From Methanosarcina sp. 2.H.T.1A.6 (GTDB taxonomy: Archaea; Halobacteriota; Methanosarcinia; Methanosarcinales; Methanosarcinaceae): a stretch of 50,166 nt of DNA. Positions 14,866 through 49,915 of the stretch are shown here, piece by piece. The stretch lies in NCBI RefSeq assembly GCF_000979455.1, contig NZ_JJOY01000002.1:1-50166 (forward strand), given 5' to 3'. Every line of letters begins with the position of its first letter. The first letter of the stretch is position 1. Under the pieces are notes generated by a model. It ran no database searches, was not told where the DNA came from, and saw nothing but the letters and a program-made list of their open reading frames with translations. Both the position numbers and the translations under genes were made by a program.

Positions 14866-16037
14866 GTTTTTTCTTTGGTGATTATTTTAATTAATCGACG
14901 GGAAATCACCCTTAACACCCGAACAATTCCGGCATACAATTCTTTTTCCGTCTTCAGGCTCATAGTACTTTTCTGGTAGTACAAACCTATCCTCTATATC
15001 CTGGAAACGTACTGGATACCATAAAGGGCCAGAAAATGCAAAAATAGTAGTAAAAATCAGATTTAAAACCAGATCAGAGATAATACACCCTTGAAAAGAC
15101 AGATTTCATAATTGAGGATTACTATGAACCCTATGAACCGGAAAGAGGAGTTCCGAACCTGCCTGCAACTGCCTGTTGCGCTTATGCCAGGATAATTAAA
15201 CCGGCGGAATACTTCCTGACTGTTGCTTGATGAAATCTTACCTGCAAGGCAAATCGCCAGATAAGTACCAGCCTGGTTTTAAAGCTCTCAAAGATAGAGC
15301 TATTCCTGATTTTCGACCAAAGTATAACAGTATACCTCCACAATATCCACGGAGGCTTTTTGCATCTGCCCGAAAATATTTGCCCTAACATAAGCTTATT
15401 GATGGATCTGAAATAACTCTCAGAATCCCAAGTCAAATAATGTGTTTACCATTCAATATACCTGATAACTGAAGACTTCCAGAGATATTCCCAGAGATGG
15501 GATAAACCTGAGGCGTGAGCAGCTAGAGTGTGCCAGACGCCTTTTTGATTAAACAAGTATCCCTAAACGATAAGTGGTAAAGCAGTGAATGAAATGCATC
15601 AGGTTTATTGAAAGCACTTTTTGACTATTACTTCATGGGTGATAAGTATAAGGTTTATTTTTGGACTGAATGGTATTAGCCCTGAATTGGTAACATGTAT
15701 AATCTGAAATTTCTATTAAGTTTGCATACGTTTAGTTACGTAAGATTCTTTACGAATCCGGTAGGTGATGAATGGATGAAGTAATTAATTTATGATATGA
15801 CCTGACAGAACAGCTCCCGCCCGCCTTAAAGCAACTTCGGAGAAACAGGAATCCTGTATGTCACATGTCTTAAATTCATATGTTTAATGCCTGCAGGCTT
15901 TAAGAACTTTGTGGTTATTTAAAAGGTTAGTTAACCCTGAATTATTTTAATTCATTCTTGATAAATTTAAGGATAATGACATCTGGAAATGTTCTCAAAA
16001 TTCATAAAAAAGAGTTAATTAGAAAAATTTAGAAAAG
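14866..16037. other. Gene-poor stretch, possible degraded sequence
   Basis: About 1.2 kb with no gene I can support. Short frames exist on both strands (for example 15182-15436 on - and a 52-codon frame from 15230 on +) but lack ribosome sites and recognisable motifs. Base composition in 15100-15560 is closer to coding DNA than the AT-rich flanks, so this could be the eroded remains of a gene. No inverted repeats or target duplications of an insertion sequence were seen. Confidence 0.4.
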
Positions 16038-16048
16038 TATATATAAAA
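16038..16048 (+). promoter_or_regulatory. TATA box of candidate small RNA
   Basis: TATATATAAAA places a start site about 25 bp downstream at 16066-16070, exactly where a 12-bp inverted repeat begins. No coding gene follows for about 310 bp. Confidence 0.6.
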
Positions 16049-16067
16049 CAAAGAACGTCTAAAAATT

Positions 16068-16165
16068 TGAACGAGCGAGACAAATACACTGTTTTATGTA
16101 TTAACCCCCCCACTCCCAACTCGCTCGTTCACCCCCCCCATAAAATCATTATCTTTCTCTTTTGT
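16068..16165 (+). ncRNA. Candidate C-rich small regulatory RNA
   Basis: TGAACGAGCGAG (16068-16079) pairs perfectly with CTCGCTCGTTCA (16120-16131). Within the 40-base loop, AATACA (16083-16088) and TGTATT (16097-16102) form a second hairpin, leaving CCCCCCCACTCCC single-stranded. A second run of eight C follows the outer stem (16132-16139), and then a T-rich tail (16148-16170) that could terminate transcription. The promoter fits the stem start to within a few bases. Exposed C runs are complementary to G-rich ribosome-binding sites, the mode of action reported for some Methanosarcina small RNAs that mask translation starts. Identity with a named RNA is not claimed. Confidence 0.6.
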
Positions 16166-16377
16166 TTTCTGGAAAACACCTTCAAATGGATATTTTCAGG
16201 AAAGATGTTCGATTAAACTTAATTTATAGGACATTGAAGGACACTTAAAGTCTTTCCAGATCATCTGAAATCCCCCCAGGTACTGAAGACGCTCCGGATG
16301 TTGAAGGCTCTCCGGATGTTGAAGGTTCTTTTCCTTTTAAAAACCTATAATAGGCGCGAAACACCATTATAAAAAGC
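16166..16377. other. Intergenic region before the flavoprotein gene
   Basis: It contains a direct repeat CTCCGGATGTTGAAGG (two copies, about 16290-16326) and an AT-rich CATTATAAAAAG element just before the next ATG. No gene. Confidence 0.5.
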
Positions 16378-17883
16378 ATGGGAAGCGATTTTGGCGTAAA
16401 GGATGCTGCAGGCAAAGTTATTCAAACCGCAGGTGAAGTTCAGGAAGATGTCCCTGAAAAAGTCTCCGCACAGGCCAGGATAGATAAAAACCTTACAAGG
16501 GTGGTCATTATAGGAGGTGGGGCCTGTGGCATGGCAGCTGCTACCAAGATCAGGAGGCAGAGTGACTTTAAAATAACTGTGCTTTCATCTGATTCCCACA
16601 CAGCTTACAGTCACTGCGGAATTCCTTTTGTTCTGGGCAGGGAAATTGAAAGTTTTGAAAAACTGATTGTAAAACCCCCGGGTTTTTTCAGGGAAAAAAA
16701 AATAGATGTGAAACTGAACGAGAAAGTGAGGTCAATAGACCTGACCAGGCGGGTCGCCCTGACAGGAGAAGGAGCCTATCCTTTTGACAAACTTATGATT
16801 GCTACAGGGAGCCTGCCCTTTATATCTCGCAAAAGCCAGGCAAATATTCTACCTTACGGAATCTTCACGCTCAGGAACCTTACTGACGGCATGCTCTTTG
16901 GAAAAGCCCTTGAAACCGCCCGGACAGTATGCATCGTAGGTGGAGGTACAATAGGAATTGAATGTGCCTCAGCCCTAACAAAGCGAGGGATTAAAACTAT
17001 CCTTATAACCAGAAGTAAAGACCTGCTTTCCAGCCAGTTTGATTCCGAGATGTCTGCAATTGTCAGGGCACACCTTGAAGCCCTCGGTGTGGAAGTTATT
17101 ACCGGGGAACCTATATTTTTACCTGAAAATTTCTGGAAAGAAAAAACTGTATTTGTAAAGGACAGGCAGTTTCCTGCAGACCTTGTGCTCCTGGCAACCG
17201 GTGTAAAACCTGAAGTATACCTTGCCAGAGAAGCAGGGATAGATATTGGAAAAGCAGGAGGAATAGTCGTAAATGAAATGCTTCAGGTAAAGGCAGGAGG
17301 GGAATTTCTCCCCCATGTATACGCAGGTGGCGAATGTGCGGAAGTTACGGGCCTTGTAACCGGGGAAAGCAGGCTCAGCCAGCTGGGCACAACTGCACGG
17401 CGTATGGCAGATGTGATCGGAAATAATATTACAGGCAAATACTCTACTTTCGGGCCCCTTGCTGACCCCTGGGTAGCTGTTGCTGGAGACCTGCAATTCG
17501 GAGGAGTTGGGTTTACACCCGAACAGGCGGAAAGGCAGGGGATAAAAGTTGTAACCGGATTTTCCCGCGGGCGCACGAGAGCTTCCTACTATCCAGGTCG
17601 AAAAGATCTCTATATAAAACTCCATTTTAAAGACGGCTGCCTTGCAGGAGCGCAACTCGCAGGTGGAGAAGGAATAAAGGAAAGAATCGATGCCCTCTCC
17701 CTTGCAATAAGAAAGAAAACAACAATCAAAGACCTTCTTAGCCTTGAAACCTGCTATGCGCCTCCAGTTTCCATGCTTGTGGATCCGCTCATGCCAGCTG
17801 TAAAAGACGCAGTCAGAAATATGCGGAAGGAGAAAACAAATGAACTGGACCCGGATAAGAGTTCGGATGAAAGATATGGTTAA
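16378..17883 (+). CDS. CoA-disulfide reductase/NADH oxidase-like flavoprotein
   Basis: Pyridine-nucleotide-disulfide oxidoreductase with an FAD dinucleotide site (VVIIGGGACGMAAA, from residue 42), a single redox Cys80 in SHCGIPFVLG as in CoA-disulfide reductases and NADH oxidases, an NAD(P)H site (VCIVGGGTIGIECA), and the HVYAGGECAE segment that binds FAD. A C-terminal dimerisation domain completes a normal length of about 460, plus a ~38-residue N-terminal extension. A likely role is thiol/disulfide balance or peroxide and oxygen defence, using NAD(P)H. The start at 16378 has no ribosome site. No better internal ATG exists, so a non-ATG start nearer residue 40 or a leaderless transcript is possible. 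It lies 43 bp before rtcA and is probably cotranscribed with it. Confidence 0.85.
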   Translation: MGSDFGVKDAAGKVIQTAGEVQEDVPEKVSAQARIDKNLTRVVIIGGGACGMAAATKIRRQSDFKITVLSSDSHTAYSHCGIPFVLGREIESFEKLIVKPPGFFREKKIDVKLNEKVRSIDLTRRVALTGEGAYPFDKLMIATGSLPFISRKSQANILPYGIFTLRNLTDGMLFGKALETARTVCIVGGGTIGIECASALTKRGIKTILITRSKDLLSSQFDSEMSAIVRAHLEALGVEVITGEPIFLPENFWKEKTVFVKDRQFPADLVLLATGVKPEVYLAREAGIDIGKAGGIVVNEMLQVKAGGEFLPHVYAGGECAEVTGLVTGESRLSQLGTTARRMADVIGNNITGKYSTFGPLADPWVAVAGDLQFGGVGFTPEQAERQGIKVVTGFSRGRTRASYYPGRKDLYIKLHFKDGCLAGAQLAGGEGIKERIDALSLAIRKKTTIKDLLSLETCYAPPVSMLVDPLMPAVKDAVRNMRKEKTNELDPDKSSDERYG

Positions 17884-23926: not shown

Positions 23927-24556
23927 ATGGTTGATGAACCTGAAGGGGAACCAGGTACTGATATTCACAACAGAGAAATTGAGAGGGAGGTCTCGGTTGC
24001 TGAAGTGATGAATAAAACAGTCATCACAATGGACATTAACACAGATATTCCTGCCATTGCAAGGGAAATGGTCAAACACGATGTCGGAAGCGTAATTATT
24101 ACAGAAAACGAAAAGGCCATGGGGATCATAACTGAAAGGGACCTTGTGAAGGGTATCGTTACAGAGGACAGAAAACCAGGTGAAGTAAATGCAAGCAAAA
24201 TCCTCTCCACCCCACTGTTAACCGTGGAACCTGAGACAAGTGTAATAAAAGCTTCCGAAATTATGTTGAAAGCCAATATTAAAAGGCTACCAGTCCTGGA
24301 AAACGGTACAATAATAGGAGTGGTTTCAAATACAGATATTCTGATGGTAACACCCGGACTCAGTACCATACTCAAGGATCTTATTGATATGAACCGGGAA
24401 GCTCTCCTCTCCGTTCCTTCAATTGGGGAGATTGAAGAAGACTTCAGTACAGGAATATGTGAATCCTGTTCTTATCATTCAGTAGACCTGAAATTAGTGG
24501 ACGGCAGATACTTATGCGAAAACTGTCGGCAAGCAGAAGGGGAGAGTTACGAATGA
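23927..24556 (+). CDS. CBS-domain pair protein with C-terminal zinc ribbon
   Basis: A Bateman module of two CBS domains (about residues 20-75 and 85-140) fused to a short zinc-ribbon-like tail with CESC and CENC knuckles (about residues 177-202). CBS pairs bind adenosine nucleotides or S-adenosylmethionine and switch the activity of partners. The zinc ribbon could provide protein or nucleic-acid contact. The ribosome site GGGGAG lies 10 bases before the ATG. It is the first of five consecutive CBS genes and the only one here with a zinc tail. The next gene starts 65 bp downstream and may be cotranscribed. The partner and ligand are unknown. Confidence 0.85.
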   Translation: MVDEPEGEPGTDIHNREIEREVSVAEVMNKTVITMDINTDIPAIAREMVKHDVGSVIITENEKAMGIITERDLVKGIVTEDRKPGEVNASKILSTPLLTVEPETSVIKASEIMLKANIKRLPVLENGTIIGVVSNTDILMVTPGLSTILKDLIDMNREALLSVPSIGEIEEDFSTGICESCSYHSVDLKLVDGRYLCENCRQAEGESYE

Positions 24557-48370: not shown

Positions 48371-49915
48371 ATGGATAGGTCTAAAATTACAGATTCTCAG
48401 GACAAGGATCCTGAATTCAATTTTCATAGTTCATCTCAGGAGTCAATATACTCTATGGACAAACTTATAACCGAATCCGCGGAAGATAATGTTTCTGTCG
48501 GAAAGTCTAAGCTTTCTGATTCTTCAATCAACAAGCCAGAGGAAACCCGGGCTTCTGTACTGCCATCTGTAGCAGAAGCCGGAGAGGTCGAGGTGAAACT
48601 CGACATAAGTTCCGAGTTTATTGCGGAACCTCTTCCTGATTCAGCTTCGGAAATTTCAGTTCCTTCTTCTTTCCACCCTCCGTCTCCGGATGTGAACAAT
48701 CCGGCTGTCGAGTTTCAGCCTTCAAAGGTTGTGCTCATAGGTACGGCACATGTTTCGGAAAAGAGCGTGGCTGAAGTCAGGGATACTATCAGGAAACTTA
48801 AACCCGATATTGTAGCTATCGAGCTCTGCCGGGCACGTTATGATTCTCTGAAAGGAAATATCCAGGAGACGAATCAGCTTCCAATAAAGGAAATTCTCAC
48901 TGAAGGAAAGGTATACTTTTACCTTGTTAACTGGTTGCTTGCCTATGTGCAGAAAAAAATCGGTGAAGACATGGGTGTAAAACCCGGTTCTGAGATGATT
49001 TCCGCAATCGATGAAGCAGAAGCATTAGGAGCCAGAGTAGCTTTAATTGACAGGGATATCCAGGTTACGCTCCAGCGTTTCTGGGGCCGCATGAAATTCC
49101 TGGAGAAAATAAAAATGCTTGGTTCTCTCATAGGCGGCCTGATAGGAATAGGAAAAGGAGCCGAGATCGATATCGATCAGATGACTCAACAGGATGTTGT
49201 CACAGCCCTTGTCGGTGAGCTCAGAGAATTTGCCCCAACTGCGGCTGAAACTCTCATAGATGAGCGGGACGCATACCTTGCAGGTAGCATCCTCAAGGTG
49301 GCTGCAGGCGGAAATAAAACTATTGTTGCAGTTGTTGGTGCAGGACATAAACCAGGAATAATTAACTACCTGAAAAACCCAAAGAGCATTCCGCCACTTA
49401 GCACTCTTATGGAGATTCCGAAGAAGCGCATTGGAATCGGTAAAATTATCGGTTTTGGAATAGTTGGTCTCGCGCTTCTGGTTTTTTTATTGCTCCTCGC
49501 ATCGGGCACCCCCCTGAACCTCCTTTTGATAGCTTTCGGATGGTGGTTCCTCATTAACGGGGTCCTGAGCGCAGTCGGCGCCCTGCTGGCAGGAGGACAT
49601 CCATACTCTGCTCTCACAGCTTTTTCGGTTGCCTGGTTAACCTCTCTGAACCCTATGATGGCTGCAGGCTGGTTTGCAGGTCTGGTAGAAGCAAAACAGC
49701 GAAGTCCAACCACTGACGATATTAAAGCCCTTGCAGGGATAGAAACTTTCAAAGAAATGTTTAAAAACAGGTTCATGCGTGTTCTTCTTGTGGCCAGCTT
49801 TGCCAATATCGGAAGTATGATAGGTACTTTCCTTGGGGCATATGTAATGCTACAGGTTACAGGCCTCGACCCGAGGGACATTCTCCTTTCTGGGTTCAGT
49901 GCGCTCGGACTCTGA
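48371..49915 (+). CDS. TraB/PrgY family membrane protein
   Basis: A 514-residue protein. After a ~115-residue acidic, Ser-rich, low-complexity N-terminus comes the TraB domain (VVLIGTAHVSEKSV with His127, DIVAIELCRARYDSL, and TIVAVVGAGHKPGI), related to pheromone-shutdown proteins PrgY/TraB and distantly to GumN/Tiki-like putative metalloproteases. The C-terminal ~160 residues contain about four or five membrane helices (IIGFGIVGLALLVFLLLLAS, LLIAFGWWFLING and others). In archaea the role is unknown; regulation or proteolysis of membrane or secreted peptides is a guess from the family. A GAGAG lies about 7 bases before the ATG. The disordered N-terminus is longer than usual. Confidence 0.87.
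   Translation: MDRSKITDSQDKDPEFNFHSSSQESIYSMDKLITESAEDNVSVGKSKLSDSSINKPEETRASVLPSVAEAGEVEVKLDISSEFIAEPLPDSASEISVPSSFHPPSPDVNNPAVEFQPSKVVLIGTAHVSEKSVAEVRDTIRKLKPDIVAIELCRARYDSLKGNIQETNQLPIKEILTEGKVYFYLVNWLLAYVQKKIGEDMGVKPGSEMISAIDEAEALGARVALIDRDIQVTLQRFWGRMKFLEKIKMLGSLIGGLIGIGKGAEIDIDQMTQQDVVTALVGELREFAPTAAETLIDERDAYLAGSILKVAAGGNKTIVAVVGAGHKPGIINYLKNPKSIPPLSTLMEIPKKRIGIGKIIGFGIVGLALLVFLLLLASGTPLNLLLIAFGWWFLINGVLSAVGALLAGGHPYSALTAFSVAWLTSLNPMMAAGWFAGLVEAKQRSPTTDDIKALAGIETFKEMFKNRFMRVLLVASFANIGSMIGTFLGAYVMLQVTGLDPRDILLSGFSALGL

Follow-up and report, generated by a model that had tools for sequence, protein, structure and literature searches.

The locus and its predicted RNA

The window, by which we mean the whole 50,166-nucleotide stretch of Methanosarcina sp. 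2.H.T.1A.6 DNA analysed here, lies on contig C17 of a 4.07-Mb genome in 54 contigs. Between dnaG and a CoA-disulfide-reductase-like gene, positions 16038–16169 begin with a TATA box, followed by a 12-bp stem that surrounds a U-rich stretch and the motif CCCCCCCACUCCCAA; the C8 tract comes next and the T-rich end last. The features of the region are as follows.

16020–16049, + strand: promoter block with an A-rich upstream element and the TATA box TATATATAA (16038–16046), near-invariant in the genus alignment
16066–16069, + strand: probable transcription start, at the base of the stem, judged from a spacing of ~25 bp from the TATA box
16068–16079, + strand: 5′ arm of the closing stem (fold, covariation, covariance model match 16068–16131)
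16083–16102, + strand: inner hairpin with a U-rich loop; hairpin not conserved (54.7% of cells paired), U tract conserved
16105–16119, + strand: exposed C motif CCCCCCCACUCCCAA, invariant columns in alignments A1 and A3
16120–16131, + strand: 3′ arm of the closing stem (fold, covariation, covariance model match)
16132–16139, + strand: C8 tail tract, lineage-specific
16150–16169, + strand: T-rich stretch, a probable archaeal U-tract terminator
16339–16377, + strand: promoter-like box TTTAAAAACCTATAATAGGCG of the downstream CoA-disulfide-reductase-like gene, its own and separate

On inspection of the sequence, the arms TGAACGAGCGAG and CTCGCTCGTTCA pair perfectly over 12 bp (16068–16079 with 16120–16131), and the C7 tract occupies 16105–16111. 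The TATA box, the stem, both C tracts and the T-rich end are all found where the first-pass annotation had placed them. Folding of 16060–16170 gave −20.2 kcal/mol (z −5.9), and none of 200 shuffled sequences was equally stable. The computed unpaired probability of CCCCCCCACUCCCAA was 1.0 in the window RNA; it was between 0.87 and 1.0 in all 28 family members that were folded. These elements point to transcription of a small RNA at the locus, which would be ~90–105 nt long.

A coding role is disfavoured because the single ATG frame inside the RNA has two codons and, among relatives, the loop varies by 1-nt indels; a TTG frame is open for 49 codons. Scanning the window against Rfam 15 at the gathering score returned no family, and a tRNA search of the window returned no tRNA. 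A permissive Rfam search with seven loci gave just two miRNA matches, both far under the cut-off.

Conservation, covariation and copy types

A 161-nt query matched 28 of the 30 Methanosarcina genomes, and all 23 good ones were among the matches (23/23). The genus alignment consists of a conserved block that runs from the promoter through the end of the stem, with flanks that are not alignable on either side, including the sequence upstream of the promoter block. Alignment A1 omits L021 and L030 out of 30 loci, L030 being a short tail match and not an RNA copy. Methanosarcina copies carry TATAWA ~28–32 nt ahead of the stem. In the genus loci T runs usually come after the stem, and the first T4 run lies at a median of 27 nt past the end of the stem pattern among loci having such a run. 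The C8 tract of the first-pass annotation is present after the stem and is lineage-specific: this region is C-rich in most Methanosarcina, variable, and missing from Methanococcoides copies. The downstream box TTTAAAAACCTATAATAGGCG could be recognised, in slightly altered form, in 26 of 28 Methanosarcina loci; the comparison covered 47 loci, of which 15 gave no start and the remainder were used.

Over 25 distinct genus sequences the outer stem was paired in 99.3% of cells, with little variation within the genus. The inner hairpin (16083–16088/16097–16102) occurs in the predicted fold, as the first-pass annotation had described, and was paired in 54.7% of cells of the same sequences; on this comparison with the outer stem it was rejected as a conserved element.

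Across genera, the closing stem was examined in an alignment of 18 sequences (A3), in which its 12 pairs were formed in 95.8% of cells, a fraction that is favoured by the recognition of some members partly through their stem. Seven of the 12 pairs were altered on both sides. Cells with a double change numbered 33, whereas shuffles gave 10.0±2.5. The stem had a covariation score of 0.483, which none of 500 shuffles reached (0.238 in shuffles). The number of further pair types in the stem showed no excess (14 versus 14.9 in shuffles). Slid-structure controls on A3 were 27–46% paired. Within the U tract, UUU was invariant across A3. This alignment leaves out the misaligned tandem copies L421 and L422, the degenerate copies L029 and L080 of genome G018, the type C copies and L426. 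Of the two stems described at first, the outer one carries compensatory changes in relatives, whereas the inner one carries none.

The covariance model R1 recovered exactly 16068–16131 in the window, at 68.1 bits. Of 237 genomes in the class, 224 gave 1 to 18 matches each to this model, and among the 150 good genomes 149 did; three genera, g6 (0/6), g8 (0/2) and g28 (0/2), were without a match in this search. In a sample of 392 genomes from across the phylum, R1 had matches in 83, every one of them in the class of Methanosarcina. DNA similarity searches (47 of 111 genomes) found the RNA in other genera of the family, including Methanococcoides (L102, L139). The same design was present in an ANME-2 record (L104) and in genomes of other families, some with tandem motifs. 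The invariant portion of the RNA family is the single-stranded CCCCACUCCC, which is tandem in several lineages, and CCCCCCCACUCCCAA is its invariant heart.

Judged by these sequence comparisons, the locus is one member of an RNA family that occurs in multiple copies in the class of methane-cycling archaea containing Methanosarcina. We conclude that the window carries, with strong support, a genuine non-coding small RNA gene that appears to stand alone with its own promoter, because it is conserved in the genus and class, its stem covaries, the TATA spacing is fixed, a T run follows, and the promoter-like box downstream is separate. The stand-alone C-rich small RNA of the first-pass annotation is therefore borne out. 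No Rfam family covers the RNA although nearly all good genomes of the class carry it. With its covariance support, multiple copies and invariant seed, the family provides a defined object in those Methanosarcina species that are genetically tractable.

The window copy is here called type A. In Methanosarcina, g5, Methanococcoides and g14, copies of this type lie between dnaG and the CoA-disulfide-reductase-like gene, which is also the downstream neighbour in one family-f2 genome. A pattern search of the same genome identified a type B paralogue (C22:280138–280216; L245:1939–2017), which carries two CCCCCCACUCCCC motifs in the stem GUGAGCGGG/CCCGCUCAC, is flanked by genes for an MFS transporter and a membrane pyrophosphatase, and was present in seven of seven other Methanosarcina genomes searched. 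Type C, seen in four Methanosarcina genomes (L252, L255, L430 and L232), has a third stem, GGGCATCTG/CAGATGCCC, around the same CCCCACTCCC motif. The stem GGGCAUCUG/CAGAUGCCC is likewise present in four genomes of the genus. The genome of the window has five more exact CCCCACTCCC sites, which were rejected, since they appear coding or otherwise not RNA.

Several observations concern additional copies. Two stem-closed RNAs with repeated C4–C5 runs lie ~600 nt apart on the minus strand of contig C52 of the same genome (L283:16096–16192 and 16800–16878). They are weaker members (30.1 and 24.3 bits), the second being no better than the antisense match of the window locus (24.8 bits). Genome G018 (L029, L080) holds several diverged, partly decayed additional type A copies. 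In L426 (G111, contig C25), a closed stem GTTATACAGGGG/CCCCTGTATAAC contains CTCCCCACTCCCACCCC and possibly represents a further RNA type. G178, G152 and further genomes of family f5 have up to 18 copies each, some of them closely spaced in tandem (L490, L491), which raises the question of the reason for such numbers.

Candidate targets

The C-rich single strand had initially been proposed to repress many mRNAs by pairing with G-rich ribosome sites, among them that of the window gene at 23927. We compared the loop with the ribosome sites of 355 sampled genes, and 24 genes reached −16 kcal/mol versus 24.8±7.1 for 200 shuffled loops. This result gives no support to repression of many mRNAs. Gene 23927 scored −16.0, inside the shuffled-loop background, and is not upheld as a target. 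An enrichment of k-mers (8-mers, 12 vs 3.5) was rejected because several of the stretches had been chosen beforehand for matches to the motif or to DUF1699; six of the 12 genes in this count, including a divergent one, were DUF1699 copies. Near-perfect complements with up to two mismatches numbered 13 in the genome of the window, versus 17 for the reversed control, the best ones being the type B paralogue and the strand opposite to the RNA itself. With the pattern AGTGGGGGN{2,12}ATG, 20 matches were obtained in this genome versus eight with the reversed pattern; five of the 20 were DUF1699 genes and three lay antisense to the type B RNA.

DUF1699 (PF08004) was found in all 30 genomes of the genus, with 4–22 matches each, and in 173 of 185 genomes of the order. 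In Methanosarcina its unusual ribosome site, AGUGGGGG, matches CCCCCACU as an exact complement. GTGGGG occurred within 24 nt of the start in 34 of 46 distinct DUF1699 sequences of the genus, which are paralogues of shared ancestry and hence not 34 independent cases, versus 14 of 646 other sampled genes, a sample drawn partly from stretches chosen for their motif matches. In the genome of the window, six of ten DUF1699 starts carry GTGGGG. In one subgroup of DUF1699 the start codon is TTG, and GGGAGGA or GGAGGA takes the place of this motif. As a side observation, the DUF1699 genes of Methanosarcina (e.g. L277:13643 and L283:919) are multi-copy, of unknown function and preceded by the unusual ribosome site AGTGGGGG. 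Separately, two neighbouring genes for NosD/beta-helix proteins (L284:12256 and 14075) have GGGAGTGG in the region of the ribosome site.

G-rich DUF1699 sites were confined to Methanosarcina and single copies from g4 and g5, and the sites elsewhere were mostly ordinary. Genus g16 has the RNA and lacks DUF1699 (5/5 genomes); DUF1699 therefore cannot be the class-wide target and was rejected in that role. It is the best candidate target on the present sequence evidence, lineage-specific at best. That the C tract pairs with ribosome sites rich in G is plausible, with DUF1699 standing out and no other target family emerging from the searches described above. To our knowledge, few archaeal sRNAs have known targets, and the DUF1699 leaders offer a concrete candidate that is open to testing. 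Taken together, the first-pass annotation is partly supported: it was right on the RNA, too broad on targets, and missed the class-wide multi-copy family.

Possible modes of action and known RNAs

We hypothesize that the locus encodes a stand-alone, stem-closed sRNA. Its single closing stem would display a single-stranded U-rich tract, a possible Sm-protein site, together with CCCCACUCCC; the C motif would pair with G-rich ribosome-binding sites and thereby block translation. In Methanosarcina, the likeliest targets would be DUF1699 mRNAs, through the complementarity of AGUGGGGG and CCCCCACU. We consider this proposal evenly poised between right and wrong. A wider version, held with somewhat less confidence than an even chance, is a class-wide archaeal regulon with 1–18 copies per genome, in which CCCCACUCCC would serve either as an ‘anti-G’ module for genes with G-rich ribosome sites or in protein titration. 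Such a regulon would control DUF1699 in Methanosarcina and other gene sets elsewhere.

In bacteria, RNAs of the CsrB type titrate or scaffold an RNA-binding protein. The RNA studied here might similarly be a decoy, its C motif and U tract binding a C-run binder or Sm-like protein that the multi-copy RNAs titrate or scaffold. The motif is far more invariant than varied mRNA targets would require, it occurs in tandem copies and at up to 18 loci per genome, no class-wide mRNA target was found, and the loop performed no better than shuffled loops. A decoy function would, however, leave the match to the DUF1699 ribosome site unexplained, and the binding protein is hypothetical, so that we rate it as possible but rather unlikely. 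A quite different role, as cis-acting leader of the CoA-disulfide-reductase-like gene, might be expected from the position of the RNA upstream of this gene and on the same strand in Methanosarcina, g5, Methanococcoides, g14 and one family-f2 genome. The gene, however, has its own conserved promoter-like box beside its start, a T run follows the stem, and the type B copy sits between MFS transporter and membrane pyrophosphatase genes; a leader function is very improbable.

The long G runs on the opposite strand, which are more numerous in tandem copies, could also act as DNA, for example as a G-quadruplex or another G-rich element. Compensatory changes that keep the stem, and its fixed distance from the TATA box, are what would be expected of an RNA, and we regard a DNA signal as hardly credible. 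The RNA could further be sRNA41 of M. mazei, described in the cited review as an intergenic Methanosarcina sRNA that masks ribosome sites in a polycistronic mRNA and acts as an anti-RBS regulator of ACDS (PMC5867862). Judged by its reported targets, this identity is disfavoured and improbable, because the ACDS ribosome sites do not fit the motif: the AGGAGG-type sites of cdhA, cdhB and cdhC in both ACDS operons, the three genes covered by the comparison, pair weakly with it (−6.3 kcal/mol each), and cdhA and cdhB rank 265–269 of 419 in the pairing list.

Returning to the proposed stem-closed antisense sRNA, two other described Methanosarcina RNAs were compared with it. According to the cited reports, sRNA154 is conserved in Methanosarcina and has an anti-RBS loop (PMC5867862), an NrpR operator (GGTA-N6-TACC) in its promoter (PMC3177094), and a leaderless 20-aa ORF (nt 4–66), and lies between MM3337 and MM3338 (PMC3177094, PMC11456600). 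The RNA of the window resembles it as a Methanosarcina-conserved sRNA, the anti-RBS loop being that of sRNA154. Identity was excluded: the sole GGTA-N6-TACC of the window is at 48910, away from the promoter, and the 20-aa ORF is absent. An NrpR-operator search of the same genome (40 sites vs 49 in the control) did not single out an sRNA154 orthologue. The 191-nt sRNA162 is described between the ArsR gene MM2441 and MM2442 (PMC3510493); it was excluded, the neighbours here being dnaG and the CoA-disulfide-reductase-like gene. Our literature search met no description of the family, but the sRNA list of the 2009 M. mazei survey may contain the type A gene.

The exposed C-rich motif beside a structured stem, as in C-rich anti-RBS sRNAs, is present here, and the nearest functional likenesses, by analogy, are LhrC and 6C/B11. 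6C is an Rfam family. In the account cited, LhrC of Listeria monocytogenes is a multi-copy sRNA whose redundant single-stranded UCCC motifs bind a G-rich stretch that precedes a start codon (PMC4132741). The likeness to LhrC, in multiple copies and single-stranded C-rich motifs, is functional, and we claim no homology: as described there, LhrC is bacterial and consists of stem-loops, a single-stranded stretch and a terminator loop, whereas the RNA of the window is archaeal and has one closing stem and CCCCACUCCC. Mycobacterial 6C/B11 is reported to pair its C-run loops with G-rich 5′ UTRs and to be broadly conserved within its lineage (PMC10470900). It shares with the window RNA the C-run single strands and the broad lineage conservation; it differs, on that report, as a bacterial RNA with two C-rich loops, whereas the window RNA has no Rfam match. 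If the class-wide regulon exists, it would be an archaeal counterpart of the LhrC, 6C or CsrB systems.
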